Shown here piece by piece: positions 15,855-44,014 of a stretch of 64,000 nt of DNA. The notes below the pieces were generated by a model, which had not been told where the DNA came from, did not search any database, and worked only from the letters and a program-made list of their open reading frames with translations. The DNA comes from Niastella populi. GTDB lineage: Bacteria; Bacteroidota; Bacteroidia; Chitinophagales; Chitinophagaceae. Position 1 is the first letter of the stretch. Each line of letters begins with the position of its first letter. The position numbers and the translations under genes are program-made. The stretch covers positions 186,001-250,000 of the forward strand of contig NZ_LWBP01000243.1 in NCBI RefSeq assembly GCF_002078015.1, written 5' to 3'.

Positions 15855-16560
15855 CTAAAGCGAATACAAGCTTCAAGCTGCAAGCTGCAAGCTTCAAGCA
15901 AATACAAATACAGCTACATACTGCAAGCCTCAAGCTGCAAGCTTCAAGCAAATACAAATACAAATACAGCTACAAGCTTCAAGCTGCAAGCCTCAAGCCT
16001 CAAGCCTCAAGCTGCAAGCTTCAAGCAAATACAAATACAAATACAGCTACAAGCTTCAAGCTGCAAGCCTCAAGCCTCAAGCCTCAAGCTGCAAGCTTCA
16101 AGCAAATACAAATACAAATACAGCTACAAGCTTCAAGCTGCAAGCCTCAAGCCTCAAGCCTCAAGCTGCAAGCTTCAAGCAAATACAAATACAAATACAG
16201 CTACAAGCTTCAAGCTGCAAGCCTCAAGCCTCAAGCCTCAAGCTGCAAGCTTCAAGCAAATACAAATACAAATACAGCTACAAGCTTCAAGCTGCAAGCC
16301 TCAAGCCTCAAGCCTCAAGCTGCAAGCTTCAAGCAAATACAAATACAAATACAGCTACAAGCTTCAAGCTGCAAGCCTCAAGCCTCAAGCCTCAAGCTGC
16401 AAGCTTCAAGCAAATACAAATACAAATACAGCTACAAGCTTCAAGCTGCAAGCCTCAAGCCTCAAGCCTCAAGCAGCAAGCTTCAAGCAAATACAAATAC
16501 AAATACAGCTACAAGCTTCAAGCTGCAAGCCTCAAGCCTCAAGCCTCAAGCAAATACAGC
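15855..16560. repeat. 77-bp tandem array built from CAAGCYK heptamers
   Basis: The landmark CAGCTAC recurs at 15967, 16044, 16121, 16198, 16275, 16352, 16429 and 16506, exactly 77 bp apart, with a shorter 56-bp unit starting at 15911. Each unit is eight heptamers (CAAGCTT, CAAGCTG, CAAGCCT variants) plus three ATACAA-like hexamers and three bases. Units are nearly identical, so expansion is recent. No ORF covers it on either strand. Confidence 0.92.
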
Positions 16561-39377: not shown

Positions 39378-40481
39378 ATGATATATCGGGCAATCGGCAT
39401 TATGAGCGGAAGTTCACTCGACGGACTGGACATTGCTTTTGTTGAATTTCACGAAAGTGCGGGTAAATGGACGTATGAGATCATGGCGGCCGATTGTCAG
39501 CCATATTCCGAAGAATGGGTGAAGCGGCTGCGCGGCGCCATTCAGCTTAATGCGTTGGATTATCAACTGTTACACACAGAATACGGCCATTATATCGGCG
39601 AACAGGTGAATACTTTCATTGCCCGTCATAACCTGCATTACAAGGTGCAGCTCATTGCCTCTCACGGTCACACCACCTTTCATGCACCGGCTAAAAAAAT
39701 GACCGGCCAGCTGGGTGATGGCGCAGCCATTGCCGCCGTTACCGGTATTAATGTGGTGAGCGACCTGCGCGCCATGGATATTGCCCTCGGCGGTCAGGGT
39801 GCCCCTATAGTGCCAATTGGCGAGAAACTGTTGCTGGGCGATTACACCTTTTTCCTGAACCTGGGCGGAATAGCCAATGTTTCTTACAACAACCCCGACA
39901 AATACATCGCTTTTGACGTTTGCCCGGCCAACCGGGTTATGAATATGCTGGCTCACGAAGCCGGCAAACCTTATGACGAGGGCGGACAAATTGCCGCTTC
40001 CGGTAAGGTGAATGAGAAGCTGCTGAAAATGCTGAATGAACTGGAATATTACCAGCTGCCGCATCCAAAATCGCTGGCCAATGATTTCGGCACCGATGTA
40101 CTGTACCCGTTAGTGAAAAGCAGCAGCGTAACGGTACCTGATGCCATGCGCACCATGGTAGAACATATTGCCACCCAGATAAGCGAACCTATCGTAAAAC
40201 TGCTTGAAACCGATCCCCCGGCGAAAAGCGATCTGAAACTACTGGCCACCGGCGGCGGCGCCCATAACCATTTTTTGATGGAACGTTTGCAGGCGGCTTT
40301 ACAGCCGGCCGGAGTTGAAGTAGTGACGCCGGATAAAAACATTATCGATTTCAAGGAAGCCGTAATAATGGCGCTTATAGGCGTTTTACGCTGGCGCGAA
40401 GAGAACAATGTGCTGGCTTCGGTTACCGGCGCCTCGCGCAGCAGTATCGGCGGTGCGGTTTGGATAGGGCTGGAAGCCTAG
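39378..40481 (+). CDS. anmK: Anhydro-N-acetylmuramic acid kinase
   Basis: 367 residues, normal length. The ATP/sugar signature IGIMSGSSLDGLDIAFVEF opens the protein, and other AnmK motifs are ASHGHTTFHAP, QLGDGAAIAAVTGINVVSDL (catalytic Asp region), LNLGGIANVS, FDVCPANRVMNMLA and LLATGGGAHNHFLMERL. It opens and phosphorylates 1,6-anhydroMurNAc released by cell-wall turnover, giving MurNAc-6-P. It pairs functionally with the EnvC-like and MurF genes in wall metabolism. The stop codon TAG is immediately followed by the first 114-bp repeat unit, leaving no conventional terminator. Confidence 0.95.
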   Translation: MIYRAIGIMSGSSLDGLDIAFVEFHESAGKWTYEIMAADCQPYSEEWVKRLRGAIQLNALDYQLLHTEYGHYIGEQVNTFIARHNLHYKVQLIASHGHTTFHAPAKKMTGQLGDGAAIAAVTGINVVSDLRAMDIALGGQGAPIVPIGEKLLLGDYTFFLNLGGIANVSYNNPDKYIAFDVCPANRVMNMLAHEAGKPYDEGGQIAASGKVNEKLLKMLNELEYYQLPHPKSLANDFGTDVLYPLVKSSSVTVPDAMRTMVEHIATQISEPIVKLLETDPPAKSDLKLLATGGGAHNHFLMERLQAALQPAGVEVVTPDKNIIDFKEAVIMALIGVLRWREENNVLASVTGASRSSIGGAVWIGLEA

Positions 40482-41377
40482 GGAAGGAGTTGATAAGTTG
40501 ATAGGGGTGATAATGGTGATAGAGGGAATACAGAATGTTGAATGTAGAATATTCCATATCGAATGTAGAAGTGAAGGCGGGAAATGATGCGGAAGGGAAG
40601 GAGTTGATAAGTTGATAGGGGTGATAATGGTGATAGAGGGAATTCAGAATGTTGAATGTAGAATATTCCATATCGAATGTAGAAGTGAAGGCGGGAAATG
40701 ATGCGGAAGGGAAGGAGTTGATAAGTTGATAGGGGTGATAATGGTGATAGAGGGAATTCAGAATGTTGAATGTAGAATATTCCATATCGAATGTAGAAGT
40801 GAAGGCGGGAAATGATGCGGAAGGGAAGGAGTTGATAAGTTGATAGGGGTGATAATGGTGATAGAGGGAATTCAGAATGTTGAATGTAGAATATTCCATA
40901 TCGAATGTAGAAGTGAAGGCGGGAAATGATGCGGAAGGGAAGGAGTTGATAAGTTGATAGGGGTGATAATGGTGATAGAGGGAATTCAGAATGTTGAATG
41001 TAGAATATTCCATATCGAATGTAGAAGTGAAGGCGGGAAATGATGCGGAAGGGAAGGAGTTGATAAGTTGATAGGGGTGATAATGGTGATAGAGGGAATT
41101 CAGAATGTTGAATGTAGAATATTCCATATCGAATGTAGAAGTGAAGGCGGGAAATGATGCGGAAGGGAAGGAGTTGATAAGTTGATAGGGGTGATAATGG
41201 TGATAGAGGGAATTCAGAATGTTGAATGTAGAATATTCAATATCGAATGTAGAAGTGAAGGCGGGAAATGATGCGGAAGGGAAGGAGTTGATAAGTTGAT
41301 AGGGGTGATAATGGTGATAGAGGGAATACAGAATGTTGAATGTAGAATATTCAATATCGAATGTAGAAGAGAAAGCA
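40482..41377. repeat. 114-bp tandem array (GAATGT-word unit)
   Basis: The landmark GAGTTGATAAG recurs at 40487, 40601, 40715, 40829, 40943, 41057, 41171 and 41285, always 114 bp apart: seven full units and one partial. Within the unit GTTGATAAGTTGATAG, GAATGTTGAATGTAGAATATT and related words repeat. Units are almost identical. Because 114 is a multiple of three, the minus strand stays open over six 38-codon repeats; this is treated as chance. Confidence 0.93.
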
Positions 41378-41465
41378 GGGAAAGAGCAGCTGTATTTGTA
41401 TTTGCTTTTGGACTGTATTTGCTTGCAGCTTGCAGCTTGAAGCTTGAGGCTTGAAGCTTGAGGCT
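41378..41465. repeat. GCTTG-word segment (reverse complement of the 15.8-kb CAAGCYK array)
   Basis: GTATTTGCTTGCAGCTTGCAG followed by GCTTGAAGCTTGAGGCTTG-type words (within 41396-41465). These are the reverse complements of CAAGCTT, CAAGCCT, CAAGCTG and CAAATACAG in the 77-bp array, here present about once. Confidence 0.85.
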
Positions 41466-41480
41466 GTATTTGCTTTCAGG

Positions 41481-41900
41481 ATTAATGCTTCGGCTAATCG
41501 GTATTCCACGACACCAACTCAATTTTGGACCTTTCCAAAGGAGGAGAAGACTTTTCCAATTCGGGCAATTAGTCTTCCAATCTGGTTGAACCGCTTCCCA
41601 ATCAGGTTAATGCTTCGGCCAGTTGGTTGTATACTTTTCCCAATCAGGTCTATGCCTTTACAGATCGGTAAAGGGTTCTTGCCATTCCGGTTTATGCCTT
41701 CTCCTTTCTGGTTAGTGCTTTCTCCAGTCGGTTTAATGCCATCACCGGTCAGGTGAAGGCAATAACCAATCGGGTTTTTCACGCAACAACCCAGTTGTTG
41801 ACACTTCCCCAAAAAGTAAAAGCCTTCTCCGATCGGGGGAAATGGTATTCCCTGTCAGGTAAAGGCGTTTATCAATCCAAATACAGGTGCCGCCGGAAAG
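41481..41900. repeat. Diverged 21-bp phased repeat, family 1
   Basis: Cutting from 41481 in steps of exactly 21 gives about 20 units such as TTGAACCGCTTCCCAATCAGG, TGTATACTTTTCCCAATCAGG, TTTATGCCTTCTCCTTTCTGG and TTAATGCCATCACCGGTCAGG. The consensus is close to TTNATGCYTTNCCAATCRGG with one more base. Units differ strongly in sequence but no indel breaks the phase. Both strands stay open over most of it, reading heptapeptide-like patterns. Confidence 0.8.
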
Positions 41901-41937
41901 AACAAAGGATAAACTAAACTATTCATCGCCTCATTTT

Positions 41938-42085
41938 GATCGGTCATGAGCACAAACTGAACAGGTAAGGTCAAAAATTGATTTGTTATGTCATAAAAAC
42001 GGGTAGAAATAAGGCAATATCAAACTATGTTAGTCAAAAAACCGATGGGAGAGGTCAAAAACTGACCGGGAAAGTCAGTTATTTG
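41938..42085. repeat. Diverged 21-bp phased repeat, family 2
   Basis: Seven units of 21 bp from 41938 share a GTCAAAAA core near the same position (GAACAGGTAAGGTCAAAAATT, AAACTATGTTAGTCAAAAAAC, CGATGGGAGAGGTCAAAAACT, GACCGGGAAAGTCAGTTATTT), with at most 1-bp drift. The sequence is unrelated to family 1. Weaker AAAAACTGA words continue to about 42180. The rest of the gap up to 42286 shows no gene. Confidence 0.65.
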
Positions 42086-42286
42086 GCCAGCCCTTTGAAA
42101 AACTGAGTCGATCACGGGGCATTCCGCACCCACCTTTCAAATTCCGGGCTGGAAGCGTGAAAAACTGAACGGTCTTTTTAAAAAACCAGTTGAAAGGGTG
42201 ATGATGTTTCGGTTGCACGATCCTCATTGACATCGGAAATCGGTATATTTAACTTTACATTGTTACTAACGGTATAAAACCTTACC

Positions 42287-44014
42287 ATGACCAGATTCAT
42301 GACCTTGTCCTTTTCGGTGATCTTACTCCATTTTGCCATGCCGGTGTGGGCGCAACCTGCGGCCCGCGAAAAAAAATACTTCAAATTACTGGAAAAAACA
42401 TTCGACGAACAACAGGCATACAAAACCGTATGGTTTGTTGAGCAGCGCTGGCGTTTAGCCGGTAACAGCGGTTTCAATGAAAGCATTTATGAGGTGGAAA
42501 AAATACTGCAACAGGCCGGCTATGTAAAAGAAACCAATGGCGAAGCGGCGGCAACACTTACCTATCGCATTGAACGAAGACCCATGAAACACGCTACCTG
42601 GGAACCCGTTGATGCCAGCCTGTATATCGTTGGTGAAAAGGAACCGGTGCTGCAGTTCAAAACCAACCGGAATATGATCGCCATGTATTCGGCATCAACA
42701 CCGGCCGAAGGCATTACGGCCGAACTGGTTTATATAGGGAAAGGAACCGCCAAAGAACTGGAGGGCAAAGACCTTTCCGGAAAAATTGTAATGGCGGAAG
42801 GCGGTATTGGCGGCGCATACAACAACGCCATCAAAAACGGCGCGCTGGGCGCACTGGCCTATTCGATGCCGAAATATAACCAGCCTGAAAAAAATATTCA
42901 CTCCATCCAGTTCCAGGGAATCGGGTATACCGATTCGCTGCGTCAGAAATGGGGCATTTTGTTATCGTACGCTGCCAAAGAAAGGTTGAAAACCGCCCTT
43001 GCAAAGGGAACGGTAACGGTAAAAGTGGTGGTGAACACAAAGATCTATACTTCGGAAGAACTAACGCTGGTGGCCAATGTACGCGGAAAAAAACGGCCCG
43101 ATGAACGGTTTGTGTTCAGCGCCCATGTACAGGAACCCGGGGCCAATGATAATGCCTCCGGGGTAGGGGCCCTGGCTGAAATGGCGCGTACAACCGCCCT
43201 GCTGGTAAAAAAGAAAAAGGTGGTTCCACAACGCACCCTTACTTTTCTATGGGGCGATGAAATTGTTTCAACCCGCCGGTACATCCGGGATGATTCCATC
43301 AGGGCCAAAGGCATAAAATGGGGATTGAGCCTCGATATGGTGGGAGAAGATATTCAAAAAACAGGCGGCACTTTCCTCATTGAAAAAATGCCCGATCCTT
43401 CGGCTATCTGGACACGCGGCAATGAAAAACACAGCGAATGGGGCGGAAGTCCGCTCAGTGAAGCGGAAATGTTCCCGCATTATTTCAACGACCTGCTCCT
43501 GAACCGCTGTTTGTTCGAAGCTGCCAATACCGGTTGGGTGGTACGCACCAACCCGTTCGAGGGAGGTAGTGACCATACGCCCTTTCTGGCGGCAAAGATC
43601 CCCGGTTTGCTGATGTGGCATTTTACCGATGTGTATTACCATACCGATGCCGACCGGCTCGAGATGGTTTCACCGGCCGAAATGAAACATGTTGCCAAAA
43701 GCGCCCTGGCAACGGCCTTTCTGCTGGCCACTGCCGATGACAGAACAGCGGTTGCGCTCATAAAAGAACTAACCCGTAACGCATTACAGCGCCTGCAAAC
43801 GGAATTTGAATTGAGCAAAAAGGCAGTACAGGCCGGAGAGGATAAAGCGAAAGAACAGCATATCCTGGAAGTGTGGGGAAACTGGTATGTAAAAGCCGTC
43901 AATGCTGCCATTGATATTCCTGCCAGGGAAGCCGGTAAAACGGTACAACAGGCCATTGAAAAAGCCAAACAACAAATTCAACAACAGACAACCACTTATA
44001 TTTCACAGTTGTAA
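42287..44014 (+). CDS. M28 family zinc metallopeptidase with PA domain, secreted
   Basis: 575 residues. Signal peptide ending PVWAQ, a PA-type insertion (~140-250, ELEGKDLSGKIVMAEGGIGG), an M28 catalytic domain (~265-485) and a helical Gln/Lys-rich C-terminal tail. Metal ligands are visible as His in FSAHVQEPGAND, Asp in ANDNASGVG, Glu in LWGDEIVS, Asp in SLDMVGED and His in VYYHTDADR. The first motif is HVQ rather than the usual HxD, so one second-shell Asp is missing. An extracytoplasmic aminopeptidase role is likely. It follows the repeat block and its promoter must lie within about 100 bp of it. Confidence 0.88.
   Translation: MTRFMTLSFSVILLHFAMPVWAQPAAREKKYFKLLEKTFDEQQAYKTVWFVEQRWRLAGNSGFNESIYEVEKILQQAGYVKETNGEAAATLTYRIERRPMKHATWEPVDASLYIVGEKEPVLQFKTNRNMIAMYSASTPAEGITAELVYIGKGTAKELEGKDLSGKIVMAEGGIGGAYNNAIKNGALGALAYSMPKYNQPEKNIHSIQFQGIGYTDSLRQKWGILLSYAAKERLKTALAKGTVTVKVVVNTKIYTSEELTLVANVRGKKRPDERFVFSAHVQEPGANDNASGVGALAEMARTTALLVKKKKVVPQRTLTFLWGDEIVSTRRYIRDDSIRAKGIKWGLSLDMVGEDIQKTGGTFLIEKMPDPSAIWTRGNEKHSEWGGSPLSEAEMFPHYFNDLLLNRCLFEAANTGWVVRTNPFEGGSDHTPFLAAKIPGLLMWHFTDVYYHTDADRLEMVSPAEMKHVAKSALATAFLLATADDRTAVALIKELTRNALQRLQTEFELSKKAVQAGEDKAKEQHILEVWGNWYVKAVNAAIDIPAREAGKTVQQAIEKAKQQIQQQTTTYISQL

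Follow-up and report, generated by a model that had tools for sequence, protein, structure and literature searches.

In the 64,000-nucleotide stretch of Niastella populi DNA analyzed here (the window), a tract of 21-bp repeats lies between two genes. It raises the question of what such a tract is and whether its regular spacing matters. A sequence-only reading had described two unrelated repeat families locked to one period, at 41481–41900 and 41938–42085, the first cut every 21 bases without an indel, and had offered a same-face DNA-binding array, a curved-DNA tract, or a coding heptad repeat as explanations. The features discussed below are as follows.

39378..40481, plus strand: left flanking gene, an open reading frame; this neighbor is conserved in 6 of 8 fetched relatives
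40480..41383, no strand: 114-bp tandem repeat, 7.9 copies, on the long-arm side (tandem repeat finder); a neighbor for which element membership is not claimed
40483..42209, no strand: extra DNA relative to the relatives, comprising the 114-bp tandem repeat, heptamers, and the 21-bp element; ends approximate
41421..41465, no strand: heptamer (GCTTGAA) array adjoining the element (tandem repeat finder); a neighbor only
41480..41894, minus strand: long arm ("GGC" arm), made of some 20 21-bp units of type CCGATTGGnGAAGGCATTAAC that read leftward (cyclic HMM, autocorrelation)
41895..42192, plus strand: short arm ("GTC" arm), made of some 14 units of type CTGACCGGnAAAGTCAAAAAC that read rightward (cyclic HMM)
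42050..42104, plus strand: block well conserved among the four copies in this genome, GTCAAAAA..GGCCAGCCCTTT (alignments A1 and A2)
42287..44014, plus strand: right flanking gene, an open reading frame with relatives at 8 loci

Period and Architecture of the Window Element

We examined the period by autocorrelation against 1000 dinucleotide-preserving shuffles. Over 41481–41900, lags 21, 42, and 84 reached z scores of 8.9, 10.4, and 7.8, and the maximum over lags in the shuffles had its 99.9% point at 4.5; the 21-bp period read there thus lies far beyond the shuffles. The same period had been claimed for 41938–42085, where it is present in weaker form (z 4.3 at lag 84 and 4.0 at lag 21), exceeding the 99% point of the shuffled maximum (3.9) and not reaching the 99.9% point (4.6).

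Analysis with a two-direction cyclic HMM describes a single divergent element, 41480–42192, with its left arm on the minus strand and its right arm on the plus strand. Both arms are built from one unit, roughly CCGATTGGnnAAGKCAnnAAC, whose consensus, trained on the four copies in this genome, is CCGATTGGTAAAGTCAAAAAC. Because the arms share this unit on opposite strands, the two supposedly unrelated families are diverged variants of it, and the second array runs past the proposed end at 42085 to about 42192. Phase is nearly intact, as had been read, although not free of indels: two single-base slips occur in the 415 bp of the long arm (41480–41894), and four occur in the 298 bp of the short arm.

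The flanking genes, which we take to be anmK-like on the left and an M28-type peptidase on the right, also adjoin each other in six Niastella/Longitalea relatives, where the gap between them is ~95–480 bp and contains no 21-bp array. Compared with N. vici, the window carries extra DNA over ~40483–42209; homology on the right starts at 42210 in two of six alignments, and the other four place its start at 42153–42237. Elsewhere in the window, 15924–16551 holds a long, near-perfect 77-bp tandem repeat of 8.2 copies with a heptamer-like interior; the 114-bp repeat is likewise near-perfect.

Copies of the Window Unit Family

Using blastn, we found three further copies of the element in the same genome (G000; 8.6 Mb, 263 contigs), designated L002, L003, and L004, each at E 3.3e-8; a search with the L003 copy as the query returned the same four places. 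Search model R1, built from the right arm of these four copies, which holds the conserved block 42050–42104, returned the four copies at E ≤ 1e-38 and no other strong place, a recovery that follows by construction, so that the independent support is that from blastn. All four copies share the divergent layout of a minus arm followed by a plus arm. Pairwise, they are 58–64% identical over 580–816 bp with 18–35 small gaps per pair, and the two aligned spans differ in length by 0–2 bp in four of the six pairs; for the remaining pairs the differences are 14 and 22 bp.

These six pairs, compared with a pairwise aligner, bear on the proposal that the tract encodes a heptapeptide repeat or is a pseudogene of one. 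Mismatch rates at the three positions (modulo 3) lie close together (0.32–0.43), far from a coding contrast, and the gaps shift the frame, as do units of 20 and 22 bp. One residue class does have the lowest rate in every pair (0.32–0.34 versus 0.34–0.43), a weak bias, which could also arise from a unit length that is a multiple of three, and two frames of ~100 aa are open across part of the array. No open frame spans a complete array among the arrays checked. We rejected the coding heptad repeat on these grounds and consider it hardly credible.

Of 15 places fetched from the sister Niastella genome G007, 13 carry the divergent element (the model trained on the window's genome recognizes both arms at 12, and retraining raises the count to 13); some of these copies have near-identical units, and a few units are 22 bp long. 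Unit model R2 matches in four of ten genus genomes. Among 147 family genomes, searched under stricter filters, it matched six, namely, the genome of the window and five with one weak match each. Among 60 phylum genomes, it matched two, namely, the genome of the window and G174. Weak R1 or R2 matches at L091, L093, L095, L120–L127, and L129–L135 were dropped, as they show no clear array of the window unit family. L119, L128, and L094 do contain 21-bp arrays, with unit sequences different from those of the window family.

Arrays of 21 bp as a Class in Niastella

We surveyed 400 kb each of G000, G007, and G003, giving 1.2 Mb of Niastella DNA, in which noncoding arrays cluster at periods of 7, 8, and the 21 series. 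Among the 38 noncoding arrays with periods of 10–90 bp, 22 fall at 21, 42, 63, or 84 (±1), compared with an expectation set by 12 of 81 integer periods (binomial 1e-9); other survey settings gave 23/37 and 18/32. The corresponding counts are 0/8 in G015 and G018, which represent two further genera of this family and contributed 200 kb each, and 2/19 in two other genomes of the class. The surveyed Niastella DNA holds about one array of the 21 series per 50 kb. The commonest noncoding arrays in this survey are those of 7 and 8 bp (62 and 26 in 1.2 Mb).

From one array to another, the units mostly share no sequence relationship, and the period is kept. Many units are self-complementary, for example, TTGCCCGCGGGCAA and AATCCYGGGATT. 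By column permutation, dyad symmetry over 21 or 42 bp was present at p ≤ 0.02 in 9 of 22 survey arrays, with 0/6 in G000; in divergent two-arm arrays, that of the window included, inversion of the arms supplies part of this symmetry.

Curvature was predicted with a wedge model. It exceeds column-permuted controls in 3 of 11 arrays. For the window itself, 48 of 150 permutations were as high as the minus arm and 2 of 150 were as high as the plus arm. The plus arm is thus among the three arrays above their controls and the minus arm is not, and the suggested curved-DNA tract was rejected as a general explanation.

Selection on the 21-bp spacing is plausible from the sequences; it is unproven, since duplication in 21-, 42-, 63-, or 84-bp steps would keep phase as well. 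At one shared site (L245/L257), two species have an array between the same pair of genes. The gene-side flank aligns there and the units are out of register, so that this orthologue comparison does not demonstrate selection on spacing.

A Gene Family Downstream of the Arrays

Comparison of flanks revealed one gene family, encoding proteins of ~203 aa, near copies of the window element. The window unit family has such gene-linked copies at L247, L251, L254, and L261, with the gene 0.4–1.1 kb from the array and, in L251, another frame between the two. A search of eight Niastella genomes gave 63 matches to this gene (8, 7, 5, 10, 0, 24, 8, and 1); across ten Niastella genomes, the number ranges from 0 to 25 matches, with 25 in one genome. 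G005, a Niastella genome of 8.9 Mb, has no match.

We examined 42 of the 63 members, of which 20 were cut out automatically, 20 were hand-picked down the list, and 2 were already in the survey. The arrays are associated with this gene and lie on one side of it. With an array defined as a match of at least 0.50 over 105 bp, 33 of the 42 members have a 21-phased array upstream (one doubtful) and none has one downstream, versus 59 of 754 control genes with an upstream array (Fisher p 7e-26; controls not matched for intergenic length). The doubtful positive, L276, scores 0.50 with control lags at 0.50–0.55 and lies inside an open frame. A clear upstream array is missing in 9 of 42 members, and one member with just 513 bp of upstream sequence was counted as a miss. 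Upstream arrays can start 1 kb before the gene.

Dyad symmetry is frequent in these upstream arrays. Of 45 upstream regions looked at, 34 had a stretch long enough for the test, and 23 of these show a dyad at p ≤ 0.01 (the better of 21 and 42 bp); 11 fail. The arrays fall into many unit families, and paralogous modules have different units with the same period. The more alike two of the proteins are, the more alike their arrays tend to be (rho 0.17; Mantel test, 0 of 2000 permutations; 35 arrays, 595 pairs): at protein identities of at least 70%, 7 of 10 pairs share units, compared with 1–2% of pairs at 35–45%. This covariation may reflect plain co-inheritance.

Most arrays have no such gene beside them. 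Among 23 listed noncoding arrays of the 21-bp family (1.2 Mb), the ~203-aa gene is the nearest neighbor of only three, and in G003 this number is 0/9. A fourth gene-linked array, at G007 C1:89959, was left off the list as more than half "coding". Like most arrays, the window copy is an orphan without the ~203-aa gene. Orphan arrays sit between genes in all four orientations.

Tandem duplication alone could perhaps produce such arrays. In a neutral minisatellite explanation, slippage in this genus would favor 21-bp (and 7- and 8-bp) duplications, and arrays would pile up in long intergenic regions, including those upstream of the ~203-aa family. The higher-order units of 42, 63, and 84 bp and the near-identical units of some arrays do indicate tandem duplication, and both the greater abundance of 7- and 8-bp arrays and the many arrays away from the gene agree with this explanation. 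It is opposed by the strong one-sided link to one gene family, which is found in other genera too, and by the dyads within units. Furthermore, G018 is rich in heptamer arrays yet free of 21-bp arrays in 200 kb, and is without the gene, and lag 7 is absent from the 12 top lags of either window array. We regard neutral minisatellites as distinctly improbable.

The ~203-aa proteins, searched singly, gave no match above the curated cutoff (four against Pfam and three against NCBIfam). The C-terminus is FN3-like: in a table without a cutoff, 20 of the 40 members searched have an fn3 match at E ≤ 0.1 (best E 2e-4), and the C-terminus of the family profile matches solved FN3 domains, with titin the best at E 8e-9. 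The N-terminus looks helical by eye. Among the Pfam families matched by 40 members there is no DNA-binding domain, and among the 11 matched at E ≤ 0.1 there is no Y1/HUH transposase. PHROGs tail-protein matches, seen in 7 and 2 of 40 family members, were read as shared FN3-type folds.

A plasmid or phage element was rejected as an identity for the module: one member matched neither plasmids nor phages, one HTH-like protein has no plasmid match, and a search with alignment A5 found no relative in viral contigs. A defense system was likewise rejected, with no PADLOC match for five proteins.

Leader Sequences and an HTH-like Partner

A conserved dyad, TTGGCCAA, lies between the array and the gene, ~75 or 190 bp before the start. 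It is present within 300 bp upstream of 30 of 42 members versus 11 of 756 control genes. The flanks of the dyad covary, with 24 double-changed cells versus a shuffled mean of 11.4 (0 of 500 shuffles; 25 chosen members). In 33 of 42 members, an [AG]TAGC word occurs 33–50 bp before the start, a count made in members only.

Of the 42 module places, 9 carry a member of a small HTH-like family (10 locus records, one place having two); the 1.26-Mb survey contains a single occurrence, at one of those nine places. The assignment comes from sub-threshold HTH matches in three of five proteins. The position of the gene varies: L254, L274, and S000 have it beyond the array, L277 has it between the array and the ~203-aa gene, and L282 has it on the ~203-aa gene's far side.

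A cis-regulatory or leader RNA is another explanation. The array would then be transcribed as a long 5′ leader, in which hairpins formed by the 21-nt palindromes would control the downstream gene, and the orphans would be relics. Gene-linked arrays that occur upstream only, the covarying leader dyad, and the window array itself, which folds better than its shuffled versions (20) on either strand, with z −3.0 and −2.6, are consistent with this explanation. A leader does not readily account for orphans in all four orientations or for arrays that start 1 kb before the gene; RNA hairpins would presumably need no strict 21-bp spacing, and Rfam matches in the window at gathering scores number zero. 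A leader RNA thus seems to us quite unlikely.

Distribution in Other Genera

The ~203-aa family is patchy, occurring in 15 of 147 family genomes and 12 of 100 genera, and in 4 of 198 genomes of a phylum sample. Five members from other genera, picked by hand, all have an upstream array (5/5); one of them, from G340, belongs to another family of the phylum. The period is 21 bp in two of them (G029 and G340), 42 bp in one (G093), and 44 bp in two (G054 and G091). The two 44-bp arrays, L306 and L307, have near-identical copies. By eye, the 44-bp unit of L306 consists of two 22-bp halves with palindromic or near-palindromic cores. G015 and G018 contain no 21-bp arrays in 200 kb each and no match to the gene, and many heptamer arrays are present in G018.

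The arrays do not require the gene in every genome. G174 has a large double 21-bp array (L196) and no match to the gene model, and most arrays have no such gene as a neighbor, so that the link between array and gene is not a strict one.

Comparison with Known Systems

Plasmid iterons and the operator arrays of DNA-binding filament proteins consist of direct repeats about two helical turns apart beside a gene. The Niastella arrays resemble them in both respects, having repeats about two turns apart with a gene adjacent. They differ in that their units are very divergent and different at each locus, with 0–25 gene matches per genome, and, from iterons, in that one ~203-aa member has no match in a plasmid collection.

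REP/BIME sequences and their RAYT (REP-associated tyrosine transposase) partners (PMC3733652) are dispersed palindromic intergenic sites with a linked gene that covaries with the repeat family. The Niastella arrays share these features: they are palindromic and intergenic, they have dispersed copies, and the linked gene covaries with the repeat family. The dispersed intergenic palindromes that define REP/RAYT repeats are thus found here, given the dyads in 23/34 upstream and 9/22 survey arrays. In contrast to REP/BIME, the Niastella sites follow one another head to tail, with a constant spacing of 21 bp, in long arrays; no common GTAG or CGTC end tag was seen by eye among the unit families, and the ~203-aa protein, unlike RAYT, has no transposase family among its Pfam matches.

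By analogy with REP/RAYT, the arrays could be selfish repeats, in which case the module protein would mobilize its cognate arrays and the orphans would be non-autonomous copies. This would explain why gene-linked and orphan copies of one unit family occur in the same genome, why an array occupies the window site and not that of six relatives, and why the unit family tracks the protein. However, the four copies in this genome are only 58–64% identical, so that no recent transposition is seen, and in two species one array site has stayed between the same two genes as its units turned over. In addition, no transposase family is among the Pfam matches of 40 members at E ≤ 0.1. We therefore consider selfish repeats unlikely.

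Two other kinds of array invite comparison. TAACTGA heptamer arrays (PMC4679880) occur in Beggiatoaceae, Cyanobacteria, and five Bacteroidetes and are tandem, noncoding, and often upstream of genes. The likeness lies in both being tandem noncoding arrays, often upstream of genes, in Bacteroidetes; the heptamer arrays have a period of 7 and one fixed word, whereas the Niastella arrays have a period of 21 and units that vary by locus. CRISPR arrays are similarly regular in period, with a partly palindromic repeat, but the Niastella units are contiguous at 21 bp and have no unique spacers, which sets them apart from CRISPR.

A Possible Binding Platform

We tentatively favor the explanation that the window element is an orphan array of phased palindromes that would serve as a binding platform on one face of the helix and represents the cis part of a Bacteroidota gene module not described before; we give this somewhat less than an even chance of being correct. 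As observed, the module comprises the ~203-aa gene, an upstream array of sites at steps of 21 bp (in some cases 42 or 44 bp), and the leader close to the gene, and some modules have the small HTH-like gene in their flank. The same-face, two-turn binding array proposed from the sequence alone is the best supported of the earlier suggestions, through the dyads of the upstream and survey arrays and the kept period, with binding itself inferred.

A dimeric module protein, either the ~203-aa protein or its HTH-like partner, may bind the dyads. Spacing by two turns would set the sites on one face of the helix, where the bound proteins could stack into a filament or form a loop. One-face binding of dyads would explain why periods of 21, 22, 42, and 44 bp, all near whole turns, are allowed and why the units drift. 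The gene-linked array might then control the gene or nucleate assembly, and orphan arrays could be dispersed binding sites spread by duplication. Autoregulation, chromosome organization, and spread of the array are candidate functions.

A more specific version of the binding platform, which we hold with considerable doubt, is a self-cognate system. In this version, paralogous modules would each read their own two-turn dyad arrays, motif and protein would diversify together with the spacing held constant, and the orphans would be private, genome-wide sites that could organize or mark the chromosome.

The arrays tie a protein family without a named family of its own to noncoding DNA in which sequence is free and the 21-bp step is kept. 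If the ~203-aa protein reads its array, the modules would supply many naturally occurring pairs of protein and DNA site, and some of the puzzling intergenic repeats in these genomes would gain a function. The gene-free Niastella genome G005 offers a natural test of array absence. The literature matches listed in our search, in which subscription journals were mostly not covered, include no publication on 21-bp Chitinophagaceae arrays or on the ~203-aa family.

Three 21-bp arrays deserve separate mention. L128 (1885–2160; G007 C9) has unrelated units and lies directly after a large gene, with no detected family member near. In L196 (1080–1790; G174, from another family of the phylum), adjacent 21-bp families of the CAACTCATAAAATATATATTC and GGACTTCCTCAAAAGTCTTAC types form the double array, which lies between two divergent genes that are DHH/pheS-like by eye. 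Finally, the array in L119 (1840–2920; G029) is directly upstream of a gene for a 227-aa protein, which has no Pfam match above the cutoff and by eye resembles a second helical plus FN3-like family.
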